From Candidatus Azambacteria bacterium (GTDB taxonomy: Bacteria > Patescibacteriota > Minisyncoccia > UBA10092): a DNA stretch of 32,655 nucleotides. The DNA lies in assembly GCA_030646675.1 (NCBI GenBank), contig JAUSKX010000027.1, positions 1-32,655 on the forward strand. Direction: 5' to 3'. Within the stretch, counting starts at the first letter, position 1; each line of letters opens with the position of its first letter. The notes beneath the pieces were generated by a model that made no database searches, had not been told where the DNA came from, and saw only the letters and a program-made list of their open reading frames with translations. Below, piece after piece: positions 10,830-29,387 of this stretch. Made by a program: the position numbers and the translations under genes.

Positions 10830-11387
10830 ATGAAGTACAATGAGATGACTTTTGGACAGATGGAAGCAGTAATCAACAAACTGGGCGGATACGAAGAGAC
10901 ATTGCGATTCCTGCGTGGCGAACTGGTGGTTTCAGAATCGGCTAAAAAAATCGACACAGTCAACCCCTACACTCTTACCATCAACTACACCCGCAGCATT
11001 GAAGACGGAATCAAAGCCGGAAAGTACGACTGGACAAACAGCGATATTACATCCAGCCATTTCCCGAGCAGCGAAGTCGGGACCAAGGAGGTTTCTGTAG
11101 AACTCGTCCATTTCGGAAAAGACATGACAATCGAAGAAGTTCTCTCCGAACTGGACAAGGCGGGCATGCGTCCCACCACTCTCAAAGAACTTCTCGTTCT
11201 CGGAGAAAAGTACCCCGACCTTCAGAGGGAATTTCCAATCATTGCTCTTGCTTCTGTCTGGCAGAATCCGCGTGGCGTCCGCCGCTGCGCGTATCTCGTC
11301 AGGTTCGGCTCCCGGCGCGACCTGGACTGGCGCTGGGTTGGCCGCAGGTGGCTTGGTCTCTGCCGGTTCGCGGCTGTCCGCAAGTAG
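10830..11387 (+). CDS. DGR target protein with C-terminal variable region
   Basis: The 185-residue protein ends in the variable repeat: its last 44 residues are encoded by 11253-11383 plus the final Lys codon. The conserved part before it (EEVLSELDKAGMRPTTLKEL, then LVLGEKYPDLQREFPIIALA) resembles, from memory, a C-type-lectin-like target family seen with CPR DGRs. Between fixed residues (SVWQNP, RFAAVRK) many positions differ from the template. No signal peptide or membrane segment is seen, so the ligand and location are unknown. The variable part is unusually rich in Arg, Trp and Leu. ATG at 10830 is supported by AAGGAGG 5 nt upstream. Codon choice (many CCC, CTC, GGA, CGC) differs from its AT-richer neighbours. 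Confidence 0.88.
   Translation: MKYNEMTFGQMEAVINKLGGYEETLRFLRGELVVSESAKKIDTVNPYTLTINYTRSIEDGIKAGKYDWTNSDITSSHFPSSEVGTKEVSVELVHFGKDMTIEEVLSELDKAGMRPTTLKELLVLGEKYPDLQREFPIIALASVWQNPRGVRRCAYLVRFGSRRDLDWRWVGRRWLGLCRFAAVRK
11252..11383 (+). repeat. DGR variable repeat (VR)
   Basis: The 132 nt align without gaps to the template at 11719-11850. There are 26 differences: 25 are at template A (to C, G or T) and one is T to G (11796 against 11329). Of 35 template adenines 25 are changed; of 97 other bases one is changed. The last 21 nt before the final CAA (11361-11381) contain no A and are identical in both, as expected for the initiation of mutagenic homing site. Confidence 0.95.
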
Positions 11388-11394
11388 GGAACTT

Positions 11395-11433
11395 GGAATC
11401 TTGAATCCTCGGCTCTTTTGGATTCTTGATTCC
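11395..11433 (+). repeat. Hairpin just downstream of the VR
   Basis: GGAATC-TT-GAATCC (11395-11408) faces GGATTC-TT-GATTCC (11420-11433): two 6-bp stems around a TT/TT internal loop, with an 11-nt terminal loop. It begins 12 nt after the VR. In the Bordetella phage DGR a hairpin shortly after the VR promotes target recognition, so a similar role is possible. Confidence 0.65.
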
Positions 11434-11438
11434 TTCAA

Positions 11439-11475
11439 AAAAGGGCGGTTATTAACCGCCCTTTTAAATTTTTTA
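11439..11475 (+). terminator. Terminator of the DGR target gene
   Basis: A perfect 12-bp stem (11439-11450 with 11454-11465), 3-nt loop, is followed by a T-rich tract (AAATTTTTTAT). It separates the target transcript from the template RNA region. Confidence 0.85.
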
Positions 11476-11628
11476 TATTTTGATAAAATATATTTAGATA
11501 GTAGATTTATAAAAGCTCGCGGTTACGGCTTCGGGCGATCGAATTCTAAAATTAATAATTCAGAGAATGGCATCGGGCACGCCTTATGCCAGAGTTGGTT
11601 ATTAATTTTTAAAAAATAAAGATACTTG

Positions 11629-11713
11629 GCGCGCGATATTAAGGGGAGAGATCCCGAATAAAATTCAATCCCGAGAGCATTCAAAGGATGGTGGAACAGG
11701 CGATATCGCGCGC
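11629..11713 (+). ncRNA. Structured leader of the template RNA
   Basis: GCGCGCGATAT (11629-11639) is the exact reverse complement of 11703-11713, giving an 11-bp GC-rich stem that ends 5 nt before the TR. Inside is a smaller hairpin (GGGA-GAGA-TCCC near 11643-11655). The stretch 11476-11718 has no credible gene and is best read as the 5' part of the template RNA. Its promoter is not clear; an AT-rich segment near 11475-11505 is a candidate. Confidence 0.6.
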
Positions 11714-11718
11714 AATGG

Positions 11719-11850
11719 TTCTGTCTGGCAGAATCCGAATGGCAACCGCAACTACGCGTATCTCAACAGGAACGGCTCCAAGCGCAACCTGAACTTGAAC
11801 TGGATTGACAACAGGTGGAATGGTAACTGCCGGTTCGCGGCTGTCCGCAA
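11719..11850 (+). repeat. DGR template repeat (TR)
   Basis: The 132-nt template is on the same strand as the VR, 467 nt downstream, and rich in AAC and AAT codons when read in the VR frame (13 of them, plus one AAG). AAY codons are typical of DGR templates because changing both As gives many amino acids and no stop codon. It is not part of a gene: in the VR frame it continues into the terminator. The RNA would be copied by the reverse transcriptase at 12250. Confidence 0.95.
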
Positions 11851-11862
11851 TTTTCTTTATTT

Positions 11863-11888
11863 CCCCGTAAAATACGGGGTTTTATTTT
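11863..11888. terminator. Terminator between TR and avd
   Basis: CCCCGTA-AAA-TACGGGG (11863-11879), a 7-bp stem, is followed by TTTTATTTT on the plus strand. It can end the template RNA; on the minus strand it follows the avd stop and may also act there. Confidence 0.75.
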
Positions 11889-12193
11889 GTCGACTGTCTC
11901 ATCCATCCCCCTAGCATTTGTCCTATTTCGCTTAAATGTTCTGAAAGAATGATGTATTTTTTGTTATCCAAAGATTTTATTTCCCAGGCGATTTGGAGAA
12001 AGAATTTAAGCAAATCAAATTTGCCGCTGGCTTTCCGCAAGTAAATGATTTTCTCCGGCTTGCTCAAATAACTTGCGATGAAAAATAACTCTACCGTATC
12101 TAAAAATAAAGAATCAATTTTTGCGCCGAGCGTATGGCGGGATTTCTTATGAAAGTGATTTCTGAATTCATCCCAAATCTTGTATACTGCCAA
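11882..12193 (-). CDS. avd: DGR accessory variability determinant (Avd-like four-helix protein)
   Basis: The 103-residue protein has the Avd/four-helix-bundle pattern: HKKSRHTLGAKIDSLFLDTVELF, SYLSKPEKIIYLRKASGKFDLLK, then AWEIKSLDNKKYIILSEHLSEIG and the end QMLGGWMRQ. In Bordetella phage BPP-1 Avd is a basic pentamer that binds the reverse transcriptase and template RNA and is needed for mutagenic homing. The gene is antisense to the TR and RT, convergent with the TR and divergent from RT. The start is uncertain: TTG at 12193 is the only usual codon. In-frame residues upstream (SIIQKFLAVYK) look homologous to the family but have no ATG, because the frame meets a 9-C tract and then a TAA. Confidence 0.88.
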   Translation of the reverse strand: MAVYKIWDEFRNHFHKKSRHTLGAKIDSLFLDTVELFFIASYLSKPEKIIYLRKASGKFDLLKFFLQIAWEIKSLDNKKYIILSEHLSEIGQMLGGWMRQSTK

Positions 12194-12224
12194 AAACTTT
12201 TGGATTATAGAAATAGAACCCGTT

Positions 12225-12233
12225 GGGGGGGGG
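12225..12233 (+). repeat. 9-G homopolymer between avd and RT
   Basis: A run of nine G lies 16 nt upstream of the RT ATG (12250). It is also within the possible upstream part of the avd frame (as C9) and of a TTG-started RT frame (12223). One base more would join the avd frame to an ATG at 12270 on the minus strand. Confidence 0.7.
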
Positions 12234-12249
12234 TAATAGAAAAATTATT

Positions 12250-13245
12250 ATGAAAATTCAATTGCGTCATAATTTTGAATCTATTATTAGTATTGATAAT
12301 TTGTTGGAAGCGTGGAAAGAATTTATAAGAGGAAAAAGAAACAAAAAGGACGTCCAAGAATTTTCATTGTGTCTGATGGATGATATTATCACGCTTCATC
12401 AAGAACTCGCCAGTGGAATATACCGTCACGGCAGTTATCAAGCGTTTAACATATCCGACCCTAAACCAAGGAATATCCATAAAGCCAGCGTGAGAGACCG
12501 GCTTTTGCACCACGCCATTTATCGTATACTTTATCCCTTTTTCGATAAGACATTTATTGCAGATTCATATTCTTGCCGAAAAAATAAAGGCACACATAAA
12601 GCGATTAACAGATTCAAATATTTTGCCGCCAGAGTTTCAAAGAATAATACAAAAACATGCTGGGTCTTAAAATGCGATATCAAGAAATTCTTTGCGAATA
12701 TCAACCATGAAGTTTTATTGAACATTTTAGAGCAGTATATATCAGACAAGGATATTTTATGGCTTTTGGATAAAGTTATTTCAAGTTTTCATTCTGTTTG
12801 TCCAGGCGTCGGCCTGCCACTAGGCAATCTAACCTCCCAGCTCTTTGTTAATATCTATATGAACGAATTTGACCAATTTGTTAAGCATAAATTAAAGATT
12901 AGATATTATATAAGATATGCCGATGATTTTGTGGTTTTGTCGGATAATAGAAAAGAGCTTGAGGATTTAGTTTTTCCAATCAGCGAATTTCTTTCTGAAA
13001 AACTTAAATTGCAACTGCATCCGAACAAGGTTTCCATCGAAACTCTGAATTCAGGAGTTGATTTTCTGGGATGGGTTAATTTTCCAGAACACAGAATATT
13101 AAGAACCGCCGCCAAAAGAAGAATGTTCAGAAGAATAGAAGAATCTCCCACGCCTGAAACATTGAATTCTTATTTGGGGTTATTGAGGCATGGAAACACA
13201 TACAGATTGCAGAAAGAACTTTATGCACGCAAAAGTTTCCTATAG
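12250..13245 (+). CDS. DGR reverse transcriptase
   Basis: The 331-residue protein (ATG 12250) carries RT motifs in order: VRDRLLHHAI (about 81-90), SYSCRKNKGTHKA (106-118), the first catalytic Asp in LKCDIKKFFANI (D143), GLPLGNLTSQLFVNIYMNEFD (188-208), the YADD box (223-226, D225 and D226), a LQLHPNK segment (254-260) and FLGW (272-275). The GxPxGNLTSQ form is typical of DGR and related RTs. No maturase, integrase or RNase H domain follows, so it is not a group II intron protein. It would copy the TR RNA with errors at A and send the cDNA to the VR. A TTG at 12223 would add nine residues through the G tract, but ATG is preferred. The gene ends in a 16-bp hairpin. Confidence 0.93.
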   Translation: MKIQLRHNFESIISIDNLLEAWKEFIRGKRNKKDVQEFSLCLMDDIITLHQELASGIYRHGSYQAFNISDPKPRNIHKASVRDRLLHHAIYRILYPFFDKTFIADSYSCRKNKGTHKAINRFKYFAARVSKNNTKTCWVLKCDIKKFFANINHEVLLNILEQYISDKDILWLLDKVISSFHSVCPGVGLPLGNLTSQLFVNIYMNEFDQFVKHKLKIRYYIRYADDFVVLSDNRKELEDLVFPISEFLSEKLKLQLHPNKVSIETLNSGVDFLGWVNFPEHRILRTAAKRRMFRRIEESPTPETLNSYLGLLRHGNTYRLQKELYARKSFL

Positions 13246-22092: not shown

Positions 22093-22126
22093 GTTTGTTA
22101 TAAATGCTATAGCACGCAGAATAAAC
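22093..22126. repeat. ATGCTATAGCAT palindrome family, copy 2 (degenerate right arm)
   Basis: The left 22 nt equal those of copy 1 (10613). The right arm has decayed (CACGCAGAATAAAC). It ends 16 nt upstream of the PaaX/Cas2-like ATG, so it could be its operator. Confidence 0.8.
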
Positions 22127-22142
22127 TTTAATAAAAATATTT

Positions 22143-22694
22143 ATGAAGAAAAGCAAAATTGGCAAGGATTTCTTAAAGTATTTGGCTTTGGGCGGTTTGG
22201 TAACCGTAGCCATGCTCTCTCCCATAAATGGACACAAAGTGGCCAAAGATCTGGTGAAGCACGTTAAATATAAGCTTAAACAGCTTAAAAATAACGCCTA
22301 TTATCTTAAAAAACGAGGCCACATCGAGTTTGTTAAAGAGAATAGCAACGAGATTGTAGTTAGAATCACGGATGGCGGTAGAAAATATCTAAAAACATTT
22401 GATATAGACAATATGGCCCTGAACAGGCCCGAGCGCTGGGACGGGAAGTGGCGGCTGGTGATTTTTGATGTGCCGGAAAAGCATAAAAATGCGCGCGAAG
22501 CGTTAAGAAGAAAACTGAAAGATCTTTGTTTTTTTCGATTACAAGACAGCGCGTGGGTAACTCCGCATCCCTGCGATGACGAGATCAGATTTTTGAGAGA
22601 AATTTTTAATATTTCTTTTAACGTTGATGTTTTTACCATAAGTGACTTGAAACATCACGAGATCAAACTGAAGAAACATTTCAATATCGCTTGA
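22143..22694 (+). CDS. PaaX-like regulator with Cas2-like domain
   Basis: The 183-residue protein has a hydrophobic N-terminal stretch (FLKYLALGGLVTVAMLSP), a winged-helix-like part (about 30-85) and a C-terminal Cas2-like ferredoxin fold: KWRLVIFDVPEKHK (about 101-114), LRRKLKDLCFFRLQDSAWV and PHPCDDEI. This matches the PaaX/Cas2-like transcriptional regulators common in CPR genomes, often mis-named Cas2. No CRISPR repeats or cas genes are in the window, so a CRISPR role is not supported. A large palindrome lies just upstream and two more follow, suggesting that it binds them and regulates itself. It is transcribed away from leuS as a lone gene. Confidence 0.75.
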   Translation: MKKSKIGKDFLKYLALGGLVTVAMLSPINGHKVAKDLVKHVKYKLKQLKNNAYYLKKRGHIEFVKENSNEIVVRITDGGRKYLKTFDIDNMALNRPERWDGKWRLVIFDVPEKHKNAREALRRKLKDLCFFRLQDSAWVTPHPCDDEIRFLREIFNISFNVDVFTISDLKHHEIKLKKHFNIA

Positions 22695-22871: not shown

Positions 22872-22915
22872 CTCCATTTTGTTATAAATGCTATAGCATT
22901 TATAACAAAATGGAG
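22872..22915. repeat. ATGCTATAGCAT palindrome, copy 3 (perfect, 44 nt)
   Basis: A perfect 22-bp inverted repeat with no spacer, outer ends CTCCATTTTG/CAAAATGGAG. It has the same TTTGTTAT-like arms and core as the other copies. Confidence 0.9.
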
Positions 22916-23076: not shown

Positions 23077-23116
23077 CCAGTTTGTTATGGATGCTATAGC
23101 ATGGATAACAAACTGG
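23077..23116. repeat. ATGCTATAGCAT palindrome, copy 4
   Basis: A 40-nt palindrome with outer arms CCAGTTTGTTAT/ATAACAAACTGG, a 2-nt GG/GG mismatch on each side, and the perfect core. The mismatch is at the same place as in copy 1. Confidence 0.88.
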
Positions 23117-23481: not shown

Positions 23482-23534
23482 TATAATTTAACCAATGCTC
23501 TGATATCCAATCAACATTGATTGGATATCAGAGC
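23482..23534 (+). promoter_or_regulatory. Extended -10 promoter and 18-bp inverted repeat at the fibre gene start
   Basis: TTTGGTATAAT gives an extended -10 (TATAAT 23482-23487). Directly after it, GCTCTGATATCCAATCAA (23497-23514) is repeated inverted at 23517-23534 with a 2-nt centre. Transcripts would begin with this hairpin, whose right arm contains the TTG start. It may be an operator or an mRNA hairpin that hides the start. Confidence 0.65.
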
Positions 23535-26500
23535 AAGAACAAATTTGTGCTTAATTTACCCGAAGAAATAAAAAATACCAAACAGAATTCGCGATATATT
23601 CCGCTAGCCGAAGCCGGGGAAATTTTGGGCACTTCGCGCGACTATCTGAACGTGCTTGTCAGGCGCGGAAAACTCCGCGCCGTAAAACTCGGCCGAAACT
23701 GGTTCACAACGGACGAATGGATTTCGGAATATAAAGCGCCCGCGGGCAAATTGGAACAAGAAGAAAAAGCCGAGCTGGCATCTTTGCGCGACGCTTCGCT
23801 GGCTGAAAGATTGGAGCGCGTGGAATCCCGATTCGAAAATATTTCAACTTTTAGAGATAAAGAAATATCTAAAAAAATTTATTCCGTTGTTTCTTCCCAA
23901 GAAATTAAACTGCCATCCAGAAAATTAGAACCGGAAGAGAAAACAAAGATTCTGGAATCGGTAAAAGAAAGAATCCAAACAATCGATTCCAATAATTTCC
24001 ACAATGTCTCCAAGAAATTGGGAATCAGGAAATCTCTAGAGAGCTGGTCGGCGAAGAAACTCTCCATCGCTTCAGCGCTGGCAGGCCTTGTTTTAATTGT
24101 ATCTCTCGGAATGGCGGCGGGTGTTTTCAATTTTTCCCCCTTCGGGGGATCCCCCGTAGGGGGACAATTTTCCCGCATAGCGGGACAAGCTAACATCTTC
24201 AGCAACTTCCCCAATGACGTTTCTCAATTTACGAACTGGCTGGCAAATGGAATCAACAAATCCATTTCTATTTTCAATCCATCCCAAACGGATTTAACAA
24301 TCGAAGAACTGGAATCGGGAAAATCCAAAATTGCGGTTCAGGAAGAAACTTTAAATTCAATCAATTCTCTTGCTCAAGCCGAGGCGTTGGATAGCCAAGC
24401 GATTGAGGAATATCAAAATATCGCTTCGGGCGAAACCGGAACAGGCGGTCAGACCGTATCAATCTCTGGCAGTAACTTTTCTCTTTTAGAGAATCGCCTG
24501 TCTCTAATCGAAACAAATCTGCGAGACCAGTCGGAACTTTTCAATTCCGAGTTGTCCGTTCAGAAAAAAACAATTCTGGGCACTCTCGGGGCTTTATTCG
24601 GCATTGCCAAAATGGTTCCCGAACATCCCGGTTCCACCATTGTCGTTCAAGGCCAGCCGGCTACTCTAACCACATACTCCGTCTCTCCCCAGGTCCAATC
24701 GGGATTTGACCGCCTTTCCGCCACCTATCTCTCTGTAGCCAATGACGCCACTATCAATGGTTCTCTGACGGTTAAGTCGGGAGGAAACTTCAATTCTCTT
24801 GGAGTTTCAGGAAACACATCCCTAAATACACTTTCAGTTTCCGGTCTTTCTTCCTTAACCACTCTTAATATTTCCGGCGATTCCACTTTGAATAATCTCA
24901 CGTTATCCGGAACTTTAGACGCCAGCGCCAGCAGTGTTATTTTCGCCAACGCCTCAACCACCAATCTGACGGTTTCGGGTAACACTTGGATTACCAACGG
25001 AACAATAACAAATGGAACCATCACCAACGGAACGATTACCAACGCCTCAACAACATATGCCACTTTGCCGACATTTTGGGGGACGAATGGAACAATAACA
25101 AACGCTTCAACAACATACGCCACTCTTCCAAACTTCTGGTCCACTAACGGAACCATCACTAACGCTTCAACCACCTATCTGACGGTCGGCAGTAACTTTT
25201 GGGGAGATGCCGGCTTAGTTTCTACCGCCATCCAGACTCCGCTAATTTGGAACAACGGAACTCTAACCGCTTCCACCACCGGCGCCAACCCGATTATTTT
25301 CGCGACTAATTCTTTGGAAAGAATGAGAATTGACGCCAACGGCTACGTTGCTATTGCGACCACAACAATGCCAGTTGGCTTCGGATTTAATATCGCCACT
25401 TCCACTTTCACTTATGGCAACCAATTTATTTCCGGCGGTCTCGGCGTTGGCATTGCCACAACAACCAACGGCGTTCTTCAAACTTCGGGAGATGCTTCAA
25501 TTGGCGGCAATCTTTATGTTTCCGGAAATTCTACGATCGCCAGCAATTTAACCGTTATCGGCGCTTCTTCCGCCAACACCTTAACTATCAATTCTTCCAT
25601 CAATTCTAATTTGGTTCCCGACCAGAACGCGGCGAGAGACCTCGGTTCAACTTCAATGTATTGGAAAAACGCGTATATCAGCACTCTTACCGTAAACAGC
25701 ATTTCCGCCGCTTCAACCACTATCGGCGGCACCCAGTCGGACACTTTTACCATAAATTCAGACAATGCCACTGCCGACAACGAAACCGAAACTTTAATCT
25801 TTTTCCGCGGCCAAATTCAGCCCAATGCTTTATTAACCTGGAACTCCGCCACCTCTTCCAAGAGATTTGAATTTAACCAATCGCTGTATATTAACAACGG
25901 TTCGGCTTCCACCACCAATCCGACTTTTACGATTCAAAGCATCGCCAACCAAACCGCCAACGCTTTGCAAATAATTGATAATAATTCCAGCGCGTATTTC
26001 ACGGTTAACCCGACGGGAAGTAAAACCACGATGGTCAACGCTTCAACTACCTATGCCACTCTGACAAATTTCTGGGGAACGACGGGGAATGTCGCTAATC
26101 TGACTGTTACCAATGCTTCCACCACCAACCTTTCCATCTCCGGCAATCTCTGGGGAGCCGGCAGCATACTTTTGTCCGACGGCTTACTGGGTTCTCCCTC
26201 CCTTTCTTTTACCAACGACACCGACTCCGGCCTTTATCGGGTTAGTGATAACAAAATGAGTTTTGTCACTGGCTCCGCCGTCGCTTTAACCATCGATTCT
26301 CAGCAATACGTCGGCATTGGAGCCGTTACCAGCCCTCAAGCAACGATTGATATCGGCACCAACGATATCTACAACAACACGATTGTTGACACTGCCATCA
26401 TCAGGCACAACACCACGGGAACCGCCGCCAATGGATTGGGAACAGCCCTTTCTTTCTGGGGTGAGGCGGTTGAAGGAACCAGCCAACAGCTGGCCAGAAT

Positions 26501-29387
26501 CGCCGGAGTGGTTGAACAGGCCACCACTACCTCGGCGACATTCGGTTCCTATCTTTCGTTCTGGACGACAGGTTCAGGAGGCATACAGGAAAAAATGCGC
26601 CTCACCTCAACCGGCGGCTTGGCTTTGGCAACCACCACAATGCCGTCAGGTTACGGATTTAATGTCGCCACATCTACAAATATCTACGGCAATCTTACCG
26701 TCTCCGGCAACGGAACCATAACCAATGCTTCTTCTACTTACTCAACAGTTTCCGATACTGCTTGGATTAACAATTTGGTCGCCACCAACGCCACTACCAC
26801 GACATTCAGAGCTTCAGGTCTGGCAACATTCGGAGGAAATGTGGGGATTGGGACGACAAGTCCGGGGGCACCGTTAGTGGTGGCAAATACCAGTCAAGCA
26901 TCACAGGCGTGGATAGTAAATAGTACTAACGGGAGGGGCATGTCGTTGAATGGCGACTATCCAGGGTTTGGTGTTAATTCCTATTATGATGGGGGTGCTG
27001 CCTGGAAAGCATTTAATAGTGAATACACCGGCATCTTTCAATTCAATCCGCTTAATGGGAACTGGCAATTCTTTACTGGCAATAATCCAGGTGCTAATCA
27101 AAACATGACGATAACTTTGCCAGTTGTCATCCAACAGGGTGGAAGTGTCGGCATCGGTGGAAACATAAACAACGATGGCACTTTAACAGGGGCAAAGTTA
27201 GTGGTTCAAAGTACCGGCAACGTCGGCATCGGGACGACGAGTCCGAATAATCTTCTGACTATTTCAGGGGCAACCACGCCCTCTCTTGGTTTTACAGTTG
27301 CTAATGGTCTTGGTTGGACAATGGGAATTGATACCGCGGATTCAAACAAGTTTAAAATTGCTTCTTCCACCGCTGTCGGAACAAACACAAGGTTGACAAT
27401 AGATAATTCGGGCAACGTCGGCATCGGGACGACGAATCCGGCAGGTCTTTTAACTCTTCGTACGGCAACAGCACAATCATTGGCTAACTCATTTTCAAGT
27501 TTGCGACTTGAATTACAGACAGCCAGCACTTCCCCTGGCGGCACGGGGCCACAATTAACTTTTGCGCAAAGTTATCATTCAGGTGCTCCAGCTGAAATGG
27601 CAGTAACGGGTGCAATTCGCGGATATAAAACCGGAAATGATTTGGGCTATGGTGGTGGGCTTCAATTGCTTTATCAACCTGATAATGTGGGCTTTGGGAT
27701 GCTTCCCGCCGTCACTTTAACAGGCGGAGGCAACGTTATTGTTAATGGTACTAGCGATACCACATCAAAGTTTTCAGTTTTCGGTGGTGCTAATGTACAT
27801 GCTGGACGCTTCTACGGAAATTCCACTGCAAGTCAAAGTTTGGGCATAAATATTGATGCGGGTACTAATTCAGCAGATTATGCGTTGTATATTAGAAATC
27901 AAGCGGCGTCAGCTGATTATTTGTATGTTAGAGGCGACGGCAACGTCGGCATCGGGACGACGACGCCAAAAGCCCCTTTGCAAATAGGTGGACAGTTATC
28001 CTTTCCGACAGATGGAACCGATGCCGTAATAGCAGATAACCTTTATTACTCTTCCGGGTGGAAGCATATAGCCAATTCTCTTGGTTCAATGGTTTATCAA
28101 CAGGACGGCAGTATTACTCTGTACACGTCAGCAACGGGAGCGGCTGATTCTGCCGCAACATTGGTGTCTGTTATGAGTACGACTGCGGCAGGAAACGTCG
28201 GCATCGGGACGACGGCGCCGGACGGGAAATTACACGTTTTTTCAGGATCAGCAGGGACAGTAACTGCTGATGCTAACGCTGATGACCTTACTGTGGAAAA
28301 TTCCGGTGCGGGCGGAATATCTATTCTGACTCCAGGTGCTTCAGATGGTAATTTATTTTTTGGCAATGAAAGCGAAAATGCCACAGCGCGTATCACTAGA
28401 GAAGCCACTACCGGCGATTTAAAGTTTAGTTTTCAGTCGGGGGTTGGAATATTTAGGTTCCAACAAGACGGCAAGCTCGGCATCGGGACGACGGCTCCTA
28501 CAGCAGGAATAGAACTTGACGTAGAAGGACAAGCAGAATGCGATGGAGCAGGATGTTGGACGGTTGAATCAGACATGGCGTATAAAAAAGACATAATAGA
28601 TTTGAATTATGGTTTAAGCGAGGTTCTACAAATGACCCCAAGAAGATACACCCTTAGAGAAACTAATGAAAATAGTTTTGGATTAATCGCGCAAGAACTT
28701 GAAACAATAATCCCTGAATTAGTTAGAGGAGAAGAGGGTCATAAAAACATAGGATATGACGGACTTGCTCCGATTTTGGTTAATGCGATGAAGGAGTTGG
28801 CATCAACCACAGTATCTTTGCAGAATCAAATTAACGCGTTAGTCGCATCATCAACTTTAACCGCGGCTAATGGAACATTCGCTCTTTCCACTATGAACTC
28901 CGACCTGAACCTCAACGGCTTTGCGATTTTGAATGTTAAGAGCATCACCGGATTTAATAATCTTTGGTCCATAGATTCCGAGGGCAATATTATCGCTAAA
29001 AGCGTTCAAACCCAGGCGTTGACCGTCGGCGGCGGCGCTGCCTCCGGCATCACGGTTTATGACCGCCAAACTTCGGCTCCAAAATGTATATATATAGAAG
29101 GAGGGGCGATTATGGCTTCGGATGGCGCCTGTGGCAGCACAATTAACGCCGGAGTTATCGCGCCGATTTCCCAAACCATCCCGGTTGCTACCTCCTCGGT
29201 TTCGGAAATCAATACGGCGACCTCAACTCCAGAGATAATAATTCCGCCGGCAGAGACGGCGACAAGTACGCCGGAAATACTGCCGACCGAAACGGCAACC
29301 TCAACCGAGCCGATTATTATTGACACGGCAACCACTACACCGGACATAATAATTCCACCGGTGGAAACGGCGACAACAACGCCATGA
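23517..29387 (+). CDS. Giant surface fibre protein: HTH, one TM, repeats, S74 chaperone domain
   Basis: The 1956-residue protein has, in order: an excisionase/MerR-like helix-turn-helix (about 27-73, YIPLAEAGEILGTSRDYLNV then RRGKLRAVKLGRNWF), a charged helical stretch (78-180), one TM segment (about 181-204), and a very long Thr/Ser/Asn/Gly-rich repeat part. That part has NGTITNASTTYATL units (about 490-560) and GNVGIGTTSP units (about 1107-1660). A peptidase S74/endosialidase chaperone domain (about 1684-1770) begins ESDMAYKKDI, with Ser1685 and Lys1690/1691 as candidate self-cleavage residues, and has FGLIAQELE and NIGYDGLAPILVNAMKEL. A further 186 residues end in a Thr/Pro tail. S74 domains trimerise tail spikes and fibres and cut themselves off. 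Start TTG 23517; GTG 23547 is an alternative. Confidence 0.85.
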   Translation: MIGYQSKNKFVLNLPEEIKNTKQNSRYIPLAEAGEILGTSRDYLNVLVRRGKLRAVKLGRNWFTTDEWISEYKAPAGKLEQEEKAELASLRDASLAERLERVESRFENISTFRDKEISKKIYSVVSSQEIKLPSRKLEPEEKTKILESVKERIQTIDSNNFHNVSKKLGIRKSLESWSAKKLSIASALAGLVLIVSLGMAAGVFNFSPFGGSPVGGQFSRIAGQANIFSNFPNDVSQFTNWLANGINKSISIFNPSQTDLTIEELESGKSKIAVQEETLNSINSLAQAEALDSQAIEEYQNIASGETGTGGQTVSISGSNFSLLENRLSLIETNLRDQSELFNSELSVQKKTILGTLGALFGIAKMVPEHPGSTIVVQGQPATLTTYSVSPQVQSGFDRLSATYLSVANDATINGSLTVKSGGNFNSLGVSGNTSLNTLSVSGLSSLTTLNISGDSTLNNLTLSGTLDASASSVIFANASTTNLTVSGNTWITNGTITNGTITNGTITNASTTYATLPTFWGTNGTITNASTTYATLPNFWSTNGTITNASTTYLTVGSNFWGDAGLVSTAIQTPLIWNNGTLTASTTGANPIIFATNSLERMRIDANGYVAIATTTMPVGFGFNIATSTFTYGNQFISGGLGVGIATTTNGVLQTSGDASIGGNLYVSGNSTIASNLTVIGASSANTLTINSSINSNLVPDQNAARDLGSTSMYWKNAYISTLTVNSISAASTTIGGTQSDTFTINSDNATADNETETLIFFRGQIQPNALLTWNSATSSKRFEFNQSLYINNGSASTTNPTFTIQSIANQTANALQIIDNNSSAYFTVNPTGSKTTMVNASTTYATLTNFWGTTGNVANLTVTNASTTNLSISGNLWGAGSILLSDGLLGSPSLSFTNDTDSGLYRVSDNKMSFVTGSAVALTIDSQQYVGIGAVTSPQATIDIGTNDIYNNTIVDTAIIRHNTTGTAANGLGTALSFWGEAVEGTSQQLARIAGVVEQATTTSATFGSYLSFWTTGSGGIQEKMRLTSTGGLALATTTMPSGYGFNVATSTNIYGNLTVSGNGTITNASSTYSTVSDTAWINNLVATNATTTTFRASGLATFGGNVGIGTTSPGAPLVVANTSQASQAWIVNSTNGRGMSLNGDYPGFGVNSYYDGGAAWKAFNSEYTGIFQFNPLNGNWQFFTGNNPGANQNMTITLPVVIQQGGSVGIGGNINNDGTLTGAKLVVQSTGNVGIGTTSPNNLLTISGATTPSLGFTVANGLGWTMGIDTADSNKFKIASSTAVGTNTRLTIDNSGNVGIGTTNPAGLLTLRTATAQSLANSFSSLRLELQTASTSPGGTGPQLTFAQSYHSGAPAEMAVTGAIRGYKTGNDLGYGGGLQLLYQPDNVGFGMLPAVTLTGGGNVIVNGTSDTTSKFSVFGGANVHAGRFYGNSTASQSLGINIDAGTNSADYALYIRNQAASADYLYVRGDGNVGIGTTTPKAPLQIGGQLSFPTDGTDAVIADNLYYSSGWKHIANSLGSMVYQQDGSITLYTSATGAADSAATLVSVMSTTAAGNVGIGTTAPDGKLHVFSGSAGTVTADANADDLTVENSGAGGISILTPGASDGNLFFGNESENATARITREATTGDLKFSFQSGVGIFRFQQDGKLGIGTTAPTAGIELDVEGQAECDGAGCWTVESDMAYKKDIIDLNYGLSEVLQMTPRRYTLRETNENSFGLIAQELETIIPELVRGEEGHKNIGYDGLAPILVNAMKELASTTVSLQNQINALVASSTLTAANGTFALSTMNSDLNLNGFAILNVKSITGFNNLWSIDSEGNIIAKSVQTQALTVGGGAASGITVYDRQTSAPKCIYIEGGAIMASDGACGSTINAGVIAPISQTIPVATSSVSEINTATSTPEIIIPPAETATSTPEILPTETATSTEPIIIDTATTTPDIIIPPVETATTTP
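24136..24163. repeat. In-frame double hairpin element in the fibre gene
   Basis: CCCCCTTCGGGGG followed by CCCCCGTAGGGGG encodes PFGGSPVGG just after the TM segment. It is the same layout as 4591-4620 in argS. A smaller TCCCGC/GCGGGA palindrome follows within about 10 nt. Confidence 0.7.
26835..28494 (+). repeat. GNVGIGTT-encoding repeats in the fibre gene
   Basis: Six copies of a 25-nt unit, with core GGCATCGGGACGACG in five, are at 26835-26859 (diverged), 27216-27240, 27411-27435, 27939-27963, 28191-28215 and 28470-28494. The copies are much closer in DNA than the sequence between them. They encode (G)NVGIGTT, a turn unit common in phage-fibre-like S74 proteins. Confidence 0.85.
29165..29210. 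repeat. 46-nt palindromic element shared with argS
   Basis: It is identical to 3788-3833 at 40 of 46 positions, with the six differences at the centre, and encodes ISQTIP-SSVSEI in both. It stands before the Thr/Pro-rich C-terminal tail of the fibre protein. Confidence 0.85.

Follow-up and report, generated by a model that had tools for sequence, protein, structure and literature searches.

A patescibacterial surface fibre with a membrane-tethered, probable DNA-binding head and operator-like sites at its own gene

Introduction

RodZ combines a cytoplasmic helix-turn-helix (HTH) domain with a transmembrane (TM) segment and an outside part, and it is a precedent for an HTH that serves as a cytoskeletal membrane anchor. 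Transmembrane transcription regulators (TTRs), among them ToxR, CadC, TcpP, and VtrA, are a known class (Demey et al. 2023, PMC10269533). The winged HTH (wHTH) domains of BldC, Xis, and RdfS belong to small soluble proteins, and BldC controls a regulon (PMC5859096, PMC11963761).

Here we describe a gene from a window of 32,655 nucleotides (the whole stretch of DNA that was analysed) of Candidatus Azambacteria, whose product resembles each of these systems in part. Like TTRs, it has a cytoplasmic DNA-binding domain, one TM segment, and an extracytoplasmic domain in a single polypeptide, and thus the DNA-binding domain and at least one TM segment in one protein that mark a TTR. Unlike TTRs, its family has an excisionase/BldC-type HTH in one to three copies and an ectodomain that is a fibre of 1000-6000 aa, while the only target site found is the family member's own gene. 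With BldC, Xis, and RdfS the family has in common the HTH fold; its repeated short sites may point to cooperative binding, which in BldC-like regulators is to direct repeats, and BldC is the closest studied DNA-binding mode (PMC5859096). The repeats described here differ from theirs, however, in lying 12 bp apart and being mostly inverted, and the protein is membrane-anchored. As in S74 (endosialidase-type) phage fibres, an S74 domain with a Ser-Lys dyad lies near the C terminus of a repetitive fibre, but the gene is cellular, in a conserved chromosomal order after leuS, and its product has an N-terminal HTH and TM segment as well as a further conserved module after S74. The arrangement of cytoplasmic HTH, TM segment, and outside part also recalls RodZ, although the HTH is of a different type (Pfam finds HTH_17 only) and operator-like sites lie at its own gene. 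The main text of the TTR survey (PMC10269533) mentions neither "Patescibacteria" nor "candidate phyla", and a literature search, largely of journals open without subscription, returned no description of a patescibacterial HTH fibre family. The family is apparently a variant of the TTRs whose HTH type differs, whose ectodomain is a giant fibre, and whose operator seems to be private.

Results

Gene, start codon, and locus

The window ORF (23517-29387, forward strand, as are its -10 box, its start codons, and the protein segments given below) encodes 1956 aa within an open frame of 1966 aa that has no internal stop. Its TTG at 23517 is an unlikely start codon because it lies inside a perfect inverted repeat (23496-23535), and the GTG at 23547..23549 is a likelier one. 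A start after the HTH was considered and rejected, given that the HTH is kept from either codon and that in most relatives an ATG stands a few residues ahead of it. The -10 box TATAAT was read directly at 23482..23487, where it occurs in the extended form TTTGGTATAAT; TTTGnTATAAT is also present in five Azambacteria relatives (L041, L042, L043, L044, and L046).

The fibre locus is chromosomal and follows leuS. Its assignment to a prophage, or as a phage tail fibre gene, was rejected: phage genes are absent beside it, its neighbours encode tRNA synthetases, TatD, a PaaX-like protein, and a TPR protein, and the gene order is kept in Azambacteria. Around the PaaX-like gene (22143-22694) lie three related palindromes that have GTTTGTTATAAATGCTATAGCA as their basis (22093-22126, 22872-22915, and 23077-23116) and are possibly its own operators. 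Elsewhere in the window, a diversity-generating retroelement occupies 10830-13245. In it, ORF 10830-11387 carries the variable repeat (11249-11383) at its 3' end, and a template repeat (11716-11850) and a reverse transcriptase (12223-13245) follow; 25 of the 27 differences between the repeats fall on template A.

The HTH head

The earlier note on this DNA had placed an excisionase-like HTH at the N terminus, and the predicted fold bears this out. Neither of the outcomes that the note had named as counting against it was obtained, a start beyond the HTH or an HTH predicted without its fold. The domain is a MerR/Xis/BldC-like wHTH at residues 26-72 (23592..23732). Pfam HTH_17 matched residues 31-62 with an E-value of 0.0012 and 19.5 bits, below its curated cut-off of 27, and the NCBIfam excisionase model TIGR01764 gave 2e-5 and 24.8 bits against a cut-off of 28.8. 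Two relatives (L044 and L046) exceeded the curated cut-off, and the first HTH of one relative, at 1.2e-9, lay above it. In an AlphaFold2 model made with an alignment of the N terminus, residues 20-60 had a pLDDT of 93-95 and folded as helix-helix-wing-helix, that is, with the two helices, wing, and helix of excisionase/HTH_17 domains. The nearest solved folds in Foldseek were Pukovnik Xis (4j2n, rmsd 1.2), BldC with DNA (6amk, rmsd 1.6), MerR with DNA, and RdfS. For Xis and BldC, roughly 50 residues superposed with an rmsd of 1.2-1.8; E-values were weak because the domain is small. A PDB sequence search with the HTH profile found nothing significant. Within the N-terminal region, conservation is highest in the HTH: identity to three relatives is 79-83% there and 30-42% in the linker, as would be expected of a DNA reader. 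The HTH is very probably a working DNA-binding domain whose target is its own gene.

Membrane segment and ectodomain

A single TM segment at residues 181-204 (24057..24128) had likewise been proposed, and the protein has one hydropathy peak (182-200), flanked by six K/R residues inside and none outside, which places the N terminus in the cytoplasm. The same N-inside orientation was obtained for 89 of 108 family proteins, all TM calls being hydropathy-based. Close to the membrane, residues 130-146 (23904..23954) carry the motif IKLPSRKLEPEEKTKIL, whose pattern recurs in L041, L042, L044, and L046 and at the C terminus of most of eight soluble HTH paralogues. These paralogues (L033-L040, 150-209 aa) share the HTH, and most of them have at the C terminus an ILPIRKM motif that resembles the one beside the membrane in the fibre protein. 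The conserved LPxRK motif may bind a partner that the membrane and soluble proteins share.

Outside the membrane, a fibre ectodomain (24129..28568) is built of Ser/Thr/Asn/Gly-rich repeats such as GNVGIGTT and NASTTYATLP (45% STNG, 3% K/R). It leads to an S74 intramolecular chaperone domain at residues 1685-1737 (28569..28727), which matched PF13884 with an E-value of 3.5e-9 and 37.3 bits against a cut-off of 22, and in which the Ser-Lys dyad is kept; Ser1685 and Lys1690 are invariant across six aligned S74 domains. An outside part of about 1750 residues with an S74 domain was thus correctly anticipated. The statement that 186 residues follow S74 was right in that S74 is not at the end, but 219 residues follow the Pfam domain, and the figure is about 186 only if the C-terminal helix of S74 is counted with it. 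The AlphaFold2 model of the S74 and C-terminal part (pLDDT 48) was too poor for use.

After S74 comes a module (SDLNLNGFAILN...LWSID...CIYIE...DGACG; 28827..29201, about residues 1771-1895) that is common to L042, L044, and L046 and weaker in L048, L057, and L161; L042 carries it even though Pfam finds no S74 there. The protein closes with a Thr/Pro-rich tail (29202..29384), and its last residues, ATTTP, are identical in L042, L044, and L046. Among other relatives, the L041 frame contains an intein/Hint-like domain at residues 1130-1436 (PF14890, E-value 2e-19), and by eye inteins or Hint-like domains are also seen in the C-terminal part of L053 and after S74 in L116.

Recurrence of the architecture

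A contig scan with the single protein found no relative, whereas a scan with alignment A1 did, and the named close relatives were Candidatus Azambacteria. The N terminus was matched in 29 of 54 related genomes, and the HTH profile gave matches in 213 of the 385 genomes searched in the class and, phylum-wide, in 72 of 287. We fetched 120 genes, of which 108 combined a TM segment with 150 bp or more of sequence upstream. About 100 homologues have one to three HTHs at the extreme N terminus, one TM segment, and ectodomains of up to more than 6000 aa, so that the order of HTH, TM segment, and fibre does recur in other genomes; small HTH-TM proteins with short ectodomains exist too. S74 was found in 118 of 385 genomes. 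Comparison of the HTH and S74 matches placed the two in one frame in G000, G002, G003, G302, G220, G158, and G086 with the class-wide HTH search, and in G112 with the phylum-wide one. The HTH-TM module is therefore general, and fibres end in several ways, S74 being one of them. Full C termini are known for few members because many contigs stop inside the fibre gene. One frame of 4602 aa (L094, on G086:C3) holds two HTHs and three S74 domains. A contig labelled Aenigmatarchaeota (L244) has a related HTH with ATCCGATA sites upstream, which reflects either transfer or mis-binning.

Operator-like sites of class A

Upstream of class A members (YSQEYLSL) we found the arrangement TATCCGATA-N3-TATCGGATA. 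In a de novo k-mer count, ATCCGATA was enriched without prior choice, occurring upstream of 35% of 104 membrane-HTH genes versus 3.9% of 336 control upstreams from the same loci, many of which are not true promoters, a weakness of this comparison taken alone. A genome-wide test with the core ATCCGATANNNTATCGG is free of that weakness. The core occurred in 26 of 385 genomes (about 300 Mb), mostly at one place each, and in 22 of the 26 it lay 25-333 bp ahead of the HTH of an HTH-TM gene; one of these (G149) has a second site within that gene. The four exceptions lacked the outer bases or stood in other contexts, and the reversed core gave one match. Furthermore, class A 9-mers of the form TATC[CG]GATA numbered 125 against 6.2 expected, with a 12-bp spacing in 25 pairs that were mostly inverted and in some cases direct (L121, L138, L144). 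The class A site was present in 56/72 versus 5/48 (Fisher 8e-14, a value that ignores genome relatedness, related genomes not being independent), and about 22% of class A genes are without ATCCGATA within 250 bp.

In 22 of 37 genes with a strong -10 box, the strongest such box preceded the operator by 0-45 bp; in nine the strongest -10 was downstream of the site, and the sign of regulation may consequently vary. A DnaA-box-like sequence, TTATCCACA, was also frequent upstream (27% versus 3.6% of controls) but, since it occurs 7-36 times in complete genomes, was discarded as a specific signal. In some families (L051, L114, L116, L131, and L141), 160-230 bp separate the operator from the start downstream of it, and a GC-rich hairpin lies in this interval, which suggests a second control layer; part of this group has the element GGAATGCA.

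The window operator and other HTH classes

The window belongs to class B, and its putative operator is the perfect inverted repeat TGCTCTGATATCCAATCAA-CA-TTGATTGGATATCAGAGCA (23496..23535; 19-bp arms, 100%); the -10 box ends about 8 bp before it. The sequence TGATATCNNATCA is confined in its genome (G000) to the two arms of this repeat, and aligned 39-bp counterparts precede the fibre genes of three relatives. The class B operator rests on this one palindrome and its alignment to few relatives, the strong statistics being those of class A. An Rfam search of the upstream region gave only sub-threshold chance matches.

Sites change with the class of HTH. For motifs that, like that of class E, were picked after viewing the sequences, the class B form GAT[CT]TGATA was found in 4/6 versus 0/114 and the class C (YTPEYLN) form TTGATATCAA in 4/4 versus 0/116; class F upstream regions had no clear site. 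In seven family genomes GATCTGATANC had nine matches, four of them at fibre promoters. As a control within the same genomes, the soluble paralogues have a site of their own, TATCGY-N4-RCGAT, upstream in 6/8 versus 0/112, and 6 of its 10 places in family genomes are at the paralogue gene. In the window genome it adjoins that gene (C23:3045-3061), while the fibre gene has the 23496-23535 repeat instead.

Discussion

From the architecture and its recurrence, the HTH fold, the inside orientation, the operator-like sites at own promoters, and the correspondence of site to HTH class, all obtained by computation, we infer with reasonable confidence that the window protein joins a transcriptional autoregulator, tethered to the membrane, to its own surface fibre. 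It would probably act as a repressor. The cytoplasmic excisionase/BldC-like wHTH would bind a dedicated operator (23496-23535) between the -10 box and its own start codon, and fibre synthesis would most likely be lowered once enough fibre heads sit at the membrane. As synthesis starts with the HTH and continues through a very long fibre, such a loop would measure nascent or membrane-inserted fibre, and in a very small cell the promoter would always be close to the membrane. The operator begins where a bound protein would block transcription, as it does in 22 of 37 genes with a strong -10 box, and the simplest interpretation is that the protein represses its own gene from the membrane. The outside state of the fibre (free, host-bound, or S74-cleaved) might also alter DNA binding, and such contact signalling is possible by analogy with transmembrane regulators.

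The tether need not be the active state. A free cytoplasmic HTH fragment, whether nascent, unsecreted, or cut off after S74 cleavage or fibre loss, could do the binding, so that the membrane-bound form would be the off state. The retained Ser-Lys dyad of S74 and the HTH and LPxRK motif common to the soluble paralogues are compatible with regulation by release, but membrane-bound regulators are known that work without it (PMC10269533), and we regard it as a less likely alternative. It is rather unlikely that the HTH serves as a DNA tether that keeps the fibre locus near the membrane, coupling transcription and translation to insertion so that the giant protein is made at its place of insertion, with any effect on transcription rate secondary. 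The site does occur mostly once per genome and at the gene itself, the proteins reach more than 6000 aa, and a report on Vibrio T3SS2 describes a locus captured at the membrane by transmembrane regulators (PMC9977878); however, soluble paralogues and small HTH-TM proteins carry HTHs of the same family, and the operator is often in a repressor position.

The remaining explanations separate the sites from the fibre HTH. Binding by this HTH is deduced, and the same genomes contain soluble paralogues, such that another soluble regulator might read the sites. Yet the type of site varies with the class of HTH encoded next to it, and the soluble paralogue has its own, different site, which makes this quite improbable. 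The earlier note had offered two readings, signalling from contact to DNA or an HTH turned into an anchor. Class-specific operator-like sites at own genes now give good support to the DNA side, and a pure anchor is disfavoured because operator-like sites adjoin the HTH's own gene about once per genome and change with HTH class. Despite the precedent of RodZ, a protein-protein anchor that has lost DNA binding is very unlikely in view of the dedicated sites at its own promoter and of Pfam, which gives an excisionase-type HTH_17 and no RodZ-type domain. Finally, the palindromes lie within the predicted transcript, and any DNA palindrome can also fold as RNA. That they are 5' UTR hairpins unrelated to the HTH is nevertheless extremely unlikely: direct as well as inverted 9-mers have the same 12-bp spacing (L121, L138, and L144), sites match the HTH class, and no Rfam family scored above threshold at the window site.

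As a probable membrane-tethered autoregulator, the protein has a DNA-binding head that appears to recognise one short site per genome, in the control region of its own gene, and the fibre thus probably adjusts its own production from the membrane. A broader proposal is that Patescibacteria have a phylum-wide sensory family in which giant host-contact fibres are transcription factors, each reading a single private operator and linking the expression of its own gene to its state outside the cell, by way of S74 cleavage or host binding; we consider this conceivable but doubtful. Little is known of the way in which these tiny, probably host-dependent bacteria sense other cells and attach to them, and a fibre that is its own regulator would be a compact, testable link of surface to gene. 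One operator per genome would offer a clean case for control of DNA by a membrane-bound protein, and the pairs of HTH class and operator would form a naturally occurring series with which to study specificity in a small DNA-binding domain.
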